The notes: generated by a model not told the origin, from the letters alone. Positions 3,180-11,548 are shown, numbered from the stretch's first letter. The stretch: 11,548 nucleotides of DNA from Candidatus Stramentimicrobium fermentans (GCA_012520575.1 JAAYOB010000036.1:1-11548), one strand, 5' to 3'. Program-made: numbers and translations.

Positions 3180-3208
3180 ATTATAGAGTATTTATTATTT
3201 CTTGTCAA
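3180..3208 (-). promoter_or_regulatory. greA promoter, perfect sigma-70 consensus
   Basis: Minus strand TTGACA at 3203-3208, a 17-bp spacer and TATAAT at 3180-3185. Both hexamers match the housekeeping sigma consensus at every position. Transcription would start near 3173, giving a leader of about 120 bases before the greA ATG. Confidence 0.88.
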
Positions 3209-3307: not shown

Positions 3308-4498
3308 TTAAATGATTCCTACATTCTTACCGGCCTGTTCAAAAATATGCAGAGCTTCCTCTATCTCTTCAGAGGTATGAGAGGCTTGTACATGAGCTCT
3401 TAACCTATCAGTACCTTTAGGAACGGCCGGAAATAGAATGGGACAGATAAAGACACCTTTTCTGTTAACTTCTTTGCATAAATCAAGTGCTCTTTCCTCT
3501 TCTCCCACCATTATAGGCACAATAGCTGTCTCGCTATTGCCGGTATTATAGCCCATCCCCTGTAGCCCCTCTCTAAATTGTTTAATATTTTTTTGCAACT
3601 GCACTATCAATTCCGGTTCACTCTCGATAACTTCAAAACAGGCTTGGGCAGCAGCTGCGGCAACGGGTGGCAGACTGGCTGAAAAGATGAAGGGACGTGC
3701 AGTCAATTTTAAAAAATTAATGAGTTCTTGATTACCGGCTAAATAACCTCCTATAGAGGGTATGGTTTTACTTAAAGTGCCCATATGAATATCTACTGCA
3801 TTTTCCAGACCGAAATGTTCCTCAATGCCATGTCCGGTCTTACCAATCACTCCAATAGAGTGAGCTTCATCTACCATAAGCTTAGCATTATATCTCTTGG
3901 CCAGGCGAGATATTTCAGGTAAGGGAGCAATATCCCCATCCATACTATAGACAGCATCTATAACAATAAGTTTATTCTGATATTTTTCCGATCGGACTAA
4001 AATATTTTCTAAACTTTCTACATTATTGTGTAAAAAACTACGGTGATTAGCACCGGATAACAAACAACCGTCAATAATACTGGCATGGTCTAGTTTATCC
4101 ATGATTACCAAATCCCCTCTCCGGCAAAGGGTAGTAACGGCAGCCAAGTTGGTGGTATATCCACTGCTAAAGGTGATAGCTGCATCGGCATTTTTAAACC
4201 GGGCAATCTTCTCTTCTAACTTGGCATGGGCATCGGTAGTGCCTGCTAAAAAACGTACCCCGGCAGCACCGGTCCCATATTTATCGAGTGCTTCTTTAGC
4301 TGCTCCTACCACCTTGGGGTGTTTTATCAAGCCCAAATAATTATAGGAGGCAAACATTATCATTTCTCTACCGTCCACTTTCGCTCTGGCACCGTCTAAG
4401 TCTTCTACACTCTTTAAATAAAAGAAGGAGTCATTTTCCTTCATCTTTCTGGCACGTTCATTCGTTTCTCTGATTCTTTGTTCTAAAGTTACAGACAT
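3308..4498 (-). CDS. Alpha-oxoamine synthase (glycine C-acetyltransferase / 8-amino-7-oxononanoate synthase family)
   Basis: A PLP enzyme of fold type I that joins an amino acid to an acyl-CoA with loss of CoA and usually CO2. At 396 residues it has the length of Kbl and BioF. Visible motifs are SYNYLGL (51-57), GTGAAGVRFLAGTTDAH (75-91), the FSSGYTTNL cofactor loop (110-118), H138, DEAHSIGVIG (210-219) with D210 for the PLP ring nitrogen and H213, and the Schiff-base lysine K244 in GTLSKTIPSIGGY. The catalytic set looks complete. The substrate is unclear: the GVRFLAGT block is neither typical BioF nor strictly Kbl and also resembles serine palmitoyltransferase-like members. No threonine dehydrogenase or biotin gene is nearby. 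The ATG has a GAGGAG ribosome binding site 6 bases upstream. It lies 82 bp after the 302-aa gene and has no clear promoter of its own, so it is probably the third gene of that operon. Confidence 0.88.
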   Translation of the reverse strand: MSVTLEQRIRETNERARKMKENDSFFYLKSVEDLDGARAKVDGREMIMFASYNYLGLIKHPKVVGAAKEALDKYGTGAAGVRFLAGTTDAHAKLEEKIARFKNADAAITFSSGYTTNLAAVTTLCRRGDLVIMDKLDHASIIDGCLLSGANHRSFLHNNVESLENILVRSEKYQNKLIVIDAVYSMDGDIAPLPEISRLAKRYNAKLMVDEAHSIGVIGKTGHGIEEHFGLENAVDIHMGTLSKTIPSIGGYLAGNQELINFLKLTARPFIFSASLPPVAAAAAQACFEVIESEPELIVQLQKNIKQFREGLQGMGYNTGNSETAIVPIMVGEEERALDLCKEVNRKGVFICPILFPAVPKGTDRLRAHVQASHTSEEIEEALHIFEQAGKNVGII

Positions 4499-4580
4499 TA
4501 TCTACTCCTCACTTAATATTAAAATAGCACTATATGGAAGCGCCTCAAAGGCTCATTATGGTATTGACCCCGATTAAAGA

Positions 4581-5489
4581 TTAGTTTAATCGCTCAATCC
4601 TGGGTTTAAAGCCGGATTTTTTAGCTAATTCTAAATAATCTTGTGGTTTAAGTTCCTCTGGTTTTTTTCCTGAAATTGCAAGCAATGTTGCCTCATATAC
4701 ATTGGTACCAAAAGACCTGCCTTGAAATTGAGGTGTAGTAGTGATAAGATACCTTGCTCCCCTTTGCTTTAAATCCTCAACATTCTGTAAAGTGACGGTA
4801 TTGGTAATCACAATTTTCCCTTTCATGTTAGGCGGCATATAGCGATTGATGGCTAAATAATCACCGGCAATGATATCGGCATCGACAAAAAAGCGGCTAT
4901 ACTTTTGATTGCTGCTCTCTTGGTCTTTCCCGGTAGGATATAAATATTTGATGGGCAGATTGGCTAAGATAGGGATGAGCAGTTTTGCCCATATGCTCAA
5001 TGCCCTCAAACTATGTATGGGAATGGGCACATTCAGACAGAAAATTAGGTCTCCGAAAGTCATCTGACAGCCTGCCTCCAGAAGACCTTCTGCCAGACCA
5101 AATCGGTCTACGGTAATTAATACCAGCGCCTTTTTCCCGGCAAAACTAATATCAGTATTTTTCTGAACATAATCTATAACACCTTTTTCCAGTATGTATT
5201 TGATTCCGGTTCCGTCTACGACGGGGGTTTTCTTGATTACACTAATAATCCTGGCAGATTCTTTTATGGTGTATCTTTTACCGGAAGGACCGGAATAAAG
5301 GTACAGATCTGTCCCGCCTAAGGCGAATGCATCTACCTTACCATCAAATTCCTGATAGATCTCCATCATTTTGGAGACACTTCCATCTGTTCCTCTTCTT
5401 TCTATCTCTATCTCCTCACCCAATAGTTCAACCTTAACTTTGCTATCGCGGGTTGAGGAACCTAAGCTGACACCCAATACTTTTTTCAT
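4581..5489 (-). CDS. Uncharacterised conserved protein, often labelled quinate 5-dehydrogenase-like
   Basis: A 302-residue, probably cytoplasmic alpha/beta protein. The N-terminus KKVLGVSLGSSTRDSKV is followed by a glycine-rich AFALGGTDLYLYSGPSGKRY segment (about 55-74). The middle has GKKALVLITVDRFGLAEGL (about 117-135) and a hydrophobic helix at about 165-185. The C-terminal third carries KIVITNTVTLQNVEDLKQRG and TTTPQFQGRSFGTN. From memory, homologues in anaerobic Clostridia carry the automatic label quinate 5-dehydrogenase, next to a small helix-turn-helix gene as here. I see no clear GxGxxG nucleotide-binding signature and no shikimate-pathway gene nearby, so I would not rely on that label. 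The start ATG has an ideal AAGGAG site overlapping the stop of the upstream regulator gene (11-bp gap), so the two are tightly coupled. Confidence 0.65.
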   Translation of the reverse strand: MKKVLGVSLGSSTRDSKVKVELLGEEIEIERRGTDGSVSKMMEIYQEFDGKVDAFALGGTDLYLYSGPSGKRYTIKESARIISVIKKTPVVDGTGIKYILEKGVIDYVQKNTDISFAGKKALVLITVDRFGLAEGLLEAGCQMTFGDLIFCLNVPIPIHSLRALSIWAKLLIPILANLPIKYLYPTGKDQESSNQKYSRFFVDADIIAGDYLAINRYMPPNMKGKIVITNTVTLQNVEDLKQRGARYLITTTPQFQGRSFGTNVYEATLLAISGKKPEELKPQDYLELAKKSGFKPRIERLN

Positions 5490-5500
5490 CTTTCGTCTCC

Positions 5501-6037
5501 TTATTCGGACTTAATTACCTTAACTTCTTTTAAAACATTTCTAACCATTTTAATGTCTACCTGCTTATCCTCTATGATGGGTGATTTTCCGATTTCAATG
5601 CCGATTACCTGTATATTGAATAATTTTTCAGCAAAATCAACTCTTTTGTCAGAACCTAAAAAAATGATTACATCAAAATCGAGTAAATGAGTGATAATGC
5701 CAAGCACGTCATTGAAAAGCTCGGTCTTATCTCTATCTTCGATAAAACTGAGGCGCTCTTTTTGGGTTAAAAGCAAAGTATAATCTAAGCCAAATTGTTC
5801 GGCAAGGGAGAACACTTCGCCCTTATTCTTAATAGGAAAACCGACCAGGGCAATCCTTTCTCCTTTTCTTATTTCACCCAAACCCTCTAAACGTGAAACA
5901 AAGGTTCTTTCTATTCCTAACTTTCTAGCGACTTCTCCCTGAGTTAACCCTTCTGTACGACACTTCAGAATCCTGCTCATCTCTTTTTGTAATTTATCTT
6001 CAGAAATTACCTTTTCACCTATTCTAATCAATCTCAT
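5501..6037 (-). CDS. Helix-turn-helix transcriptional regulator, probably autoregulatory
   Basis: A 178-residue protein with two parts. Residues about 28-52 form an Xre-like helix-turn-helix (GLTQGEVARKLGIERTFVSR at 30-49). From about 60 on is an alpha/beta segment starting RIALVGFPIKNKGE, with a second hydrophobic strand DFDVIIFLGSDKRV and a third IQVIGIEIGKSPIIED. This tail could sense a ligand, but I cannot name the family. The ATG has an AGGA site 7 bases upstream. The gene is first after a consensus promoter at 6067-6095 whose start region carries TGTA/TACA palindromes, the expected arrangement for self-repression. The uncharacterised 302-aa gene follows after 11 bp and the alpha-oxoamine synthase after that. 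The regulated process is not evident from sequence. Confidence 0.75.
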   Translation of the reverse strand: MRLIRIGEKVISEDKLQKEMSRILKCRTEGLTQGEVARKLGIERTFVSRLEGLGEIRKGERIALVGFPIKNKGEVFSLAEQFGLDYTLLLTQKERLSFIEDRDKTELFNDVLGIITHLLDFDVIIFLGSDKRVDFAEKLFNIQVIGIEIGKSPIIEDKQVDIKMVRNVLKEVKVIKSE

Positions 6038-6047
6038 ATTTGTATCC

Positions 6048-6067
6048 TGTACACATTTTTGTATACA
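6048..6067 (-). promoter_or_regulatory. Probable operator: paired TGTRTACA palindromes at the transcription start
   Basis: TGTATACA at 6060-6067 is a perfect 8-bp palindrome touching the -10 hexamer. On the minus strand it is followed 12 bp later (start to start) by TGTGTACA at 6048-6055. A further TACA half-site lies at 6041-6044. A protein bound here would block the start site of the helix-turn-helix operon, so this is the likely binding site of that protein. Confidence 0.5.
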
Positions 6068-6095
6068 TTATAGATCCGAATAATGGGGGTGTCAA
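6067..6095 (-). promoter_or_regulatory. Promoter of the helix-turn-helix operon, perfect sigma-70 consensus
   Basis: Minus strand TTGACA at 6090-6095, a 17-bp spacer and TATAAT at 6067-6072. Both hexamers are exact consensus. The predicted start is near 6060, within the palindromic repeats, and the leader before the ATG at 6037 is only about 20 bases. A consensus-strength promoter with an overlapping palindrome is typical of a unit that is normally repressed. Confidence 0.85.
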
Positions 6096-7439: not shown

Positions 7440-8456
7440 TCAGATAAGATAATGGCTGGTATCCTGTTCAGATAACGAGGTTACCTGTAGCAGTTTTTTA
7501 GTTTGGCTATCCTTTTCACGTATATAGATATCTATCAGGTCAGTGTCCCTTTCTTTATCGCAATACCTGCCAGTAATTCTCCCAGCCAAATCTAGTGACT
7601 CCATTAACTCATCCTCTTGCTTCTCAAAACTACTATAACAGCGCAATAAAGAAATAGGCCCTTTATGGGAACTTGAGCTAAGCAAAAAGTCATCCGGTTT
7701 GGCTAAAGAAAGTATGATCTTATTCTCTTTTTCGTTCCTGCCTACGACTAACTTAAGAGACTGGTGTATATTAAAATGTCGGCCAACTTTTAATAGTTCG
7801 ATATCATTAGAATCATAATAACCCTTGCTCAATAAATCTTTCATCCTATGGGCAAATCCCGGCTCGGTTAATTTGCATCCTCCGGCAGGTGAAGGATAGC
7901 TCACTATTCCCCACCGTTTTGCTAATTCCATCTGCCTCTTCCGGGAACGGCCTTGTATATCCATCAATCTAGACCTATTTACGATATTAGTTCTTTCCGG
8001 TTTCGTTTCCGGTAACAATATGGCAGATAAGGGTCTTAAGATAAAGTCGCCATACCCTGACTCTTTGCTGATTAAGAACAGGTTATTTTTGTTTTGAGTC
8101 ATAGGTCTCTGCCCCAACACCTCTCCACTGATGACAAAAGAAGCCTTCTCCCGAACCATTAATTCTCCTGCCTTTTTAAACATCAGAATACGGCAATCAA
8201 TACAGGGATTTTCATTTTTACCAAAACCATACTTAGGATGAAGCAGCAATTTCCGAAAATATGGAAATATATCCTTTACTATTAAAGGTATGTTCAAATA
8301 TTTTTCTCCATAAGGGTCCGGCTCTTCTTTTAAGAAGGGAGTCTTAAGGTAAAGCCCTATCACTTCAATGCCCTGCTGCTGAATCAATCTAATGGCCAGT
8401 ATACTATCAAGACCGCCGGAATAGAGGGCAACAGCCTTTCTTTTCTCAACTGTCAT
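7440..8456 (-). CDS. PP-loop ATPase, predicted Fe-S-dependent tRNA sulfurtransferase (ThiI/MnmA-related)
   Basis: A 338-residue adenine-nucleotide alpha-hydrolase of the kind often annotated as a tRNA 2-thiouridylase or ThiI-like protein. The N-terminal PP-loop is YSGGLDS (12-18). It is followed by NPCIDCRILMFKKAGE (C85, C88), SGEVLGQRPMTQ (110-121), ILRPLSAILLPET (139-151), GRSRKRQMELA (169-179) and PSPAGGCKLTEPGF with C194. The CxxC...C arrangement is the one that holds a [4Fe-4S] cluster in tRNA thiolases such as TtuA. The last 100 or so residues resemble the small C-terminal domain of this family and I cannot assign a function to them. The tRNA position it modifies is not known from sequence. 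The ATG has a GAGGA site 10 bases upstream. It lies between a ferredoxin gene and mnmA on the same strand and probably has its own promoter at 8546-8575. Confidence 0.8.
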   Translation of the reverse strand: MTVEKRKAVALYSGGLDSILAIRLIQQQGIEVIGLYLKTPFLKEEPDPYGEKYLNIPLIVKDIFPYFRKLLLHPKYGFGKNENPCIDCRILMFKKAGELMVREKASFVISGEVLGQRPMTQNKNNLFLISKESGYGDFILRPLSAILLPETKPERTNIVNRSRLMDIQGRSRKRQMELAKRWGIVSYPSPAGGCKLTEPGFAHRMKDLLSKGYYDSNDIELLKVGRHFNIHQSLKLVVGRNEKENKIILSLAKPDDFLLSSSSHKGPISLLRCYSSFEKQEDELMESLDLAGRITGRYCDKERDTDLIDIYIREKDSQTKKLLQVTSLSEQDTSHYLI

Positions 8457-8822: not shown

Positions 8823-9008
8823 CTATTCACAACTAATTGCCTCTACCGGACAATCTTCTGCGGCTTCTTTACAGGCTTCTTCTGCATCTTTGGGAACCAC
8901 ATCAACAATAACAACCGCTACATCATCCGGTACTTCGAAAACTTCGGGGCAGGTGCTCTCACAGAGCCCACATCCAGTGCAAAGGTCTGCATCAACAGTG
9001 GCTTTCAA
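8823..9008 (-). CDS. Single-cluster [4Fe-4S] ferredoxin
   Basis: A small acidic soluble electron carrier. With a TTG start at 9006-9008 it has 61 residues beginning (M)KATVDADLCTGCG, which lines up with Thermotoga-type ferredoxins of about 60 residues. Cysteines in this numbering are C10, C13 and C16, and C53 in CPVEAI, the expected cluster ligands. C20 and C46 correspond to the pair that forms a disulfide in Thermotoga ferredoxin. The second CxxCxxC set of 2[4Fe-4S] ferredoxins is absent. A GTG three codons earlier is in frame but lies inside the AGGAGG site, so TTG is the better start. It is a single-gene unit closed by a strong terminator. Its redox partner cannot be told from the window; the next genes are Fe-S-type tRNA thiolases. 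Confidence 0.92.
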   Translation of the reverse strand: MKATVDADLCTGCGLCESTCPEVFEVPDDVAVVIVDVVPKDAEEACKEAAEDCPVEAISCE

Positions 9009-9014
9009 ACTATT

Positions 9015-9022
9015 CACCTCCT
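9015..9022 (-). promoter_or_regulatory. Ribosome binding site that decides the ferredoxin start
   Basis: Minus strand AGGAGGTG. The AGGAGG core is 8 bases from the TTG at 9006-9008, the ideal spacing. The in-frame GTG at 9015-9017 overlaps the core and so cannot be its start. Confidence 0.75.
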
Positions 9023-11453: not shown

Positions 11454-11548
11454 TCCCGGCAGTGTCCTACTCTCCCGCAGGTAATCCTGCAGTACCATCG
11501 GCGCTGGAGGGCTTAGCTGCTGTGTTCGGGATGGGAACAGGCGGTTCC
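11454..11548 (-). rRNA. rrf: 5S ribosomal RNA, 3' portion (5' end beyond the window)
   Basis: The minus strand reads the conserved 5S core, including TTCCCATCCCGAACAC (loop C region), CTAAGCCCTCCAGCGCCGAT, GATGGTACTGC and GGGAGAGTAGGACACTGCCGGG-type sequence at the 3' end. About 95 of roughly 117 bases are present. The 3' end is set near 11454 where the terminal-stem sequence stops; ATTTTTTATT follows. This places the window directly downstream of an rRNA operon transcribed in the same direction as all the genes here. Confidence 0.95.

Follow-up and report, generated by a model that had tools for sequence, protein, structure and literature searches.

The window analysed here, an 11,548-nucleotide stretch of DNA that is the entire contig G000:C19 of an Atribacterota genome (1.58 Mb, 98% complete), contains three genes that we predict to be cotranscribed as one conserved operon from a single promoter. 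These genes encode a helix-turn-helix regulator (HTH), a protein of 302 aa (P302) and an alpha-oxoamine synthase (AOS). We give about even chances to the reading that this unit is a repressed branch of fatty-acid metabolism that would consume acyl-thioesters and whose product is a prediction. The features of the unit are as follows:

6067..6095, minus strand: sigma-70-type promoter TTGACA-17-TATAAT (12/12 consensus), preceding the HTH gene
6048..6067, minus strand: candidate operator TGTATACAAAAATGTGTACA, the only site without mismatch in the 1.58-Mb genome
5501..6037, minus strand: HTH regulator, 178 aa (ORF call), with an N-terminal HTH_3-like and a C-terminal Rossmann-like domain
4581..5489, minus strand: P302 ORF, 302 aa, with an acyl-ACP-reductase-like predicted fold, without a Pfam or NCBIfam model and without an invariant Cys
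4499..4580, minus strand: P302-AOS spacer, 82 bp, with no promoter-like site on the coding strand
3308..4498, minus strand: ORF of the AOS, a PLP enzyme of 396 aa whose nearest solved relative is bacterial serine palmitoyltransferase (SPT)

The HTH and P302 genes are 11 bp apart, and the TAA that ends HTH shares bases with the P302 ribosome-binding site (AAGGAG). A minus-strand scan of 4499-4580 revealed nothing promoter-like between P302 and AOS, while a second 12/12 promoter at 3208..3180 sets greA apart from the three-gene unit. The three genes form a conserved operon in 21 of the 24 sampled genomes of the window's order, and some 20 genomes share the arrangement HTH-P302-AOS, with gaps of mostly -4 to 31 bp between HTH and P302 and of 15-129 bp between P302 and AOS. 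Since the spacers are short, the perfect promoter lies upstream, none is internal and the gaps stay small across the order, the predicted cotranscription is well supported. A preliminary description of this DNA had proposed a regulated three-gene unit, with the stop codon overlap and a synthase devoid of its own clear promoter. Both details were found again, and the ORFs, the 11- and 82-bp spacers, the promoter, the operator and the conservation across the order bear out the unit as a whole; that observation is correct and reaches further than first stated.

The operator consensus is palindromic (TGTRYACA-N4-TGTRYACA) and abuts the perfect sigma-70-type promoter. The -10 box and TGTATACAAAAATGTGTACA overlap by one base, the last of the former and the first of the latter, so that the operator covers the expected transcription start. 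A genome-wide scan found exactly one perfect copy in the window's genome, and scanning 25 genomes revealed one copy with 0 to 1 mismatch per genome in 21 of the 24 genomes of the order; its placement before HTH was confirmed in those genomes whose upstream DNA was inspected. Sites with two mismatches in other genomes of the order were mostly intragenic and were set aside as chance, and these genome scans found the operator only at the HTH promoter within the order. Furthermore, 71 HTH promoters were compared across Atribacterota, Bacillota and Actinomycetota, and 58 of them have an operator with at most 2 mismatches (32 without any mismatch), compared to 2 of 2042 random stretches drawn from the same loci. 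Together with the single site per genome, these counts identify by sequence an operator that is conserved across phyla at the HTH protein's own promoter. Because the operator overlies the expected transcription start, the HTH protein would repress its own operon by binding there. Its Rossmann-like domain would sense a metabolite of acyl supply. The C-terminal domain gave weak Rossmann-like structural matches (best Z 7.3; Rex and PhyR at Foldseek E values of 2e-3 or worse), and a family assignment from these matches was dropped.

P302 has no Pfam or NCBIfam match, and 15 family members have no Pfam match either; weak Pfam matches of family members were judged to be chance, as were gp350 and STAS in sequence searches of the PDB, which yielded no solved homologous sequence. 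The viral contigs searched contained no relative of P302, and a literature search found no paper on the 302-aa family. The protein is present in 46 of 61 relatives sampled, has at least 589 confirmed matches in public genomes and is widespread in Bacillota, Actinomycetota and Atribacterota. Its AF2 model is confident (pLDDT 89.9, pTM 0.89), and the best structural match is the cyanobacterial acyl-ACP reductase (AAR) 6jzq (Z 14.2, 247 residues, rmsd 4.3), followed by the carmabin TAD thioester domain (Z 13.4) and glutamate dehydrogenases (Z at most 11.7). The model thus places the predicted fold of P302 in the acyl-ACP reductase class. In contrast to AAR (PDB 6jzq, 6jzu, 6jzy, 6jzz), P302 shows no detectable sequence homology and lacks an invariant Cys: across 101 aligned sequences, the column richest in Cys has it in 68, and the catalytic C294 of AAR is not matched. 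Where AAR has the dinucleotide motif GATGxxG, P302 has (S/T)xxDRxG, so that NAD(P) binding by P302 is not assured, and no aldehyde-deformylating oxygenase was seen near P302.

Of 102 P302 loci examined, 67 have the HTH gene immediately before P302, and in 63 the next gene after P302 encodes a protein of about 360 aa (TR), with greA and lysS usually coming next; a few of the 63 are transaminases that clustered with TR through a fused gene at locus L058. TR is homologous to PigE (2e-35) and to cyanobacterial AAR (6e-23), matches the NCBIfam models PigE and AcACP_reductase and contains the catalytic-Cys motif ACMAET, in which the Cys is invariant. By sequence, the usual neighbour of P302 is therefore an acyl-thioester reductase of the TamH/PigE type. 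TR, which is absent from the window's genome, is thus a true sequence homologue of AAR, whereas P302 matches AAR best in predicted fold. A profile comparison of P302 and TR (15 and about 100 sequences) detected no sequence homology (hhalign probability below 1%), which limits their relation to a shared predicted fold. In a sample of 151 genomes from a single phylum, which we assign to Armatimonadota on the strength of one genome that matches a record of this name exactly at the P302 locus, P302 occurs in 149 and TR in 146, adjacent or not, and P302 neighbourhoods there have no conserved third gene. The preliminary description had named HTH and P302 as neighbours in Clostridia too, which the 67 loci corroborate, and had suggested that a link to an acyl-CoA-condensing enzyme may point to the pathway, as the link to an acyl-thioester enzyme now does. 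Its proposed neighbourhood survey did return a recurrent acyl-thioester third gene, but this gene is TR elsewhere and AOS only in the window's order.

TamH converts acyl-ACP to a fatty amine (PMC9594044). Sister Atribacterota families carry P302 followed by a class-III transaminase, a START-type protein and TR, and at L058, also in Atribacterota, transaminase and TR are fused in one gene beside P302, like the TamH/PigE transaminase-thioester reductase fusions (PMC9594044, PMC8341465). The window's order differs from these systems, as it carries AOS at the locus and neither TR nor a class-III transaminase. The L058 fusion gene (L058:3-3984) encodes 879 aa in a TamH-like domain order and is followed by an aldehyde-dehydrogenase-like gene. 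At four loci the gene in the TR position looks like a strongly diverged or shortened TR (L082:3654-4391, L096:8958-9746, L114:8979-9962, L129:4389-5519), suggesting that P302 may persist in a number of lineages where TR degenerates. A possible case of TR without P302 (G028) was discarded because its TR and transaminase genes are close to the end of a contig and P302 could lie beyond it.

FapR-type proteins are local regulators of fatty-acid synthesis. In one Bacillota contig (L120), a second operator lies over the promoter, just behind the boxes TTGACA-17-AATAAT, of fabH-fabK-fabD-fabG-acpP-fabF (names from reading of the sequences rather than a family scan), with HTH-P302-TR directly downstream, and the promoter-operator geometry in this one contig resembles that of the window. 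The other loci examined have no fab gene with an operator beside P302. The HTH protein is like FapR-type regulators in having a repressor-type site at its own gene start and, in this contig, at a fab operon, but differs in its operator and in its architecture (an HTH_3-like plus a Rossmann-like domain). The predicted fold, the partner enzymes and the operator tie the P302 family to acyl-thioester chemistry.

We observed that TR is absent from the window's genome and from 25/25 genomes of Atribacterota families f1-f3 and is found in 23/25 genomes of families f4-f7. Conversely, AOS is present in 22/25 genomes of f1-f3 and in 0/25 of f4-f7. In the window's order, the position that TR holds elsewhere, after P302 and before greA, is taken by AOS. 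Within this order (families f1-f2), P302 and AOS occur together in 21 genomes and are both missing from the other three, two of which are only 63-65% complete. The P302 proteins associated with AOS form one clade (support 100), suggesting that the swap was a single event; neighbourhood counts within this clade are consequently not independent of each other. In the outlier family f3 (genome G024), HTH-P302 has neither TR nor AOS beside it, and the AOS, 49% identical, is unlinked. Its start carries a 12-base core half-site of the operator, TTGTGCACAAAA, which occurs at three places in G024: at the HTH promoter, at the AOS start and near an N-acetylglucosamine-6-phosphate deacetylase-like gene. 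For any one gene, such a core half-site would arise by chance in the 60 bp upstream with a probability of about 1e-5 to 3e-5. Although just one half of the operator is well preserved at the AOS of G024, the half-site is sequence evidence for a shared HTH regulon that is independent of neighbourhood. The third copy lies before the deacetylase-like gene, near L213:1501-1516 (G024:C385:2538). The G024 AOS itself lies beside NeuB-like and DegT-like sugar-acid genes (L208:864-4572), possibly a surface-glycan cluster.

The window's synthase gene encodes, by sequence family, an alpha-oxoamine synthase of PLP fold I. It matches Aminotran_1_2 (2e-59) and gly_Cac_T_rel (426 bits), contains the motifs DHASIIDG and GTLSKT, and keeps the PLP lysine and the substrate-anchoring His. 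Its nearest solved relatives are SPT of Sphingobacterium (8guh, 3a2b) and the AOS 7poa (318.8 and 311.1 bits), with which it shares both of these residues, and its score falls below every NCBIfam subfamily cut-off. Glycine C-acetyltransferase (Kbl) was rejected, with 339.9 bits against a TIGR01822 cut-off of 493 and a separate tdh-kbl pair in the genome, and so was BioF, with 416.2 bits against 426.45 and no bioB above cut-off in this 98% complete genome. The AOS also scores below the curated SPT cut-off (409 vs 640 bits) and differs in active-site residues, as Asn52 is replaced by Tyr and Ser81 by Val. All 17 aligned AOS copies read ASYNY, with Tyr at the position of SPT Asn52, and the window's AOS has Val at that of Ser81. 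These two SPT residues lie around the bound amino acid (PMC10196870), and with both replaced the amino-acid partner of AOS is not readable from SPT. A second AOS in the genome lies beside an SDR-type L-threonine dehydrogenase (2e-132 to 7cgv), and its best solved relatives are Kbl enzymes. The two genes make up a complete threonine route at L171:4246-6485.

In the reading that we prefer, the unit would divert acyl-thioesters (acyl-ACP or acyl-CoA) from fatty-acid metabolism, and AOS would condense the thioester with an amino acid to an alpha-aminoketone. In other lineages TR would reduce the thioester to an aldehyde, which in the sister Atribacterota would probably go on to an amine with the transaminase. 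P302, the constant partner in all these lineages, would use either the acyl donor of the enzyme encoded next to it or the carbonyl compound which that enzyme forms; our first guess is a carbonyl reductase that turns the aldehyde or ketone into an alcohol. The product in the window's order would then be a long-chain amino-ketone or amino-alcohol that resembles a sphingoid base. A bolder version, which we regard as doubtful, sees a new lipid pathway built on the P302 family, in which Atribacterota swapped TR for AOS and sphingoid-like amino-ketones took the place of long-chain aldehydes or amines, under a repressor and operator conserved across phyla. If the swap is functional, it provides a clear-cut example of an acyl-thioester enzyme being exchanged for a different one within a conserved regulated unit, and a hint at sphingoid-like lipids in an uncultured phylum. 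The function of P302 is open to direct testing in hosts that grow in culture, for example Thermoanaerobacter or Moorella.

In the main rival reading, P302 would instead be a non-catalytic, AAR-like partner that carries bound acyl-ACP to the adjacent TR or AOS. The predicted fold shared with acyl-ACP reductase, the missing invariant Cys, the altered dinucleotide loop and the position next to one acyl-thioester enzyme in some lineages and next to another elsewhere would all fit such a role. However, identity reaches at least 99% at about 48 positions of the 101 P302 sequences, which come from several phyla, and many of these positions are polar, which resembles an active site; moreover, P302 and TR are often unlinked in Armatimonadota. 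We view a purely delivering P302 as a possibility of limited weight.

That AOS is an unrelated, redundant Kbl-like passenger, which settled once downstream of a two-gene HTH-P302 unit, appears unlikely. The arrangement is confined to a single clade, and HTH-P302 stands without adjacent AOS or TR in Halothermothrix (L087) and in G024, both of which favour a passenger. Nevertheless, neither AOS nor P302 occurs without the other in the 24 genomes, the absence of TR in the phylum coincides exactly with the presence of AOS, an operator half-site stands at the start of the unlinked G024 AOS, and the true tdh-kbl pair lies elsewhere in the window's genome.

The reputedly customary label of P302, quinate/shikimate 5-dehydrogenase, is highly improbable: its predicted fold is Rossmann-like, two-domain and of the dehydrogenase type, and the neighbouring TR matches Pfam Shikimate_DH, from which the label may have spread, but P302 matches neither PF01488 nor AroE models nor any Pfam or NCBIfam family, AroE ranks 34th in Foldseek and is absent from the 50 best structural matches in the Z ranking, and shikimate genes were not recognised in the P302 neighbourhoods inspected. 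The preliminary description had held this label to be unsupported and had suggested structure prediction; the best matches are indeed acyl-ACP reductases and not AroE, and no sequence family matches. The fold does nonetheless fall in the wide dehydrogenase-like class, so that the old label is wrong in detail and not absurd.

Other features of the window lie outside the three-gene unit. Positions 7440-8456 encode a 338-aa protein in which a ThiI-like PP-loop domain is fused to an NFACT-R_2 RNA-binding domain; the gene adjoins mnmA, and this pairing is conserved in the order. A small single-cluster ferredoxin gene is located at 8823-9017, with a 12-pair terminator at 8815-8789, and a 5S rRNA on the minus strand (11454-11548) is cut by the contig end.
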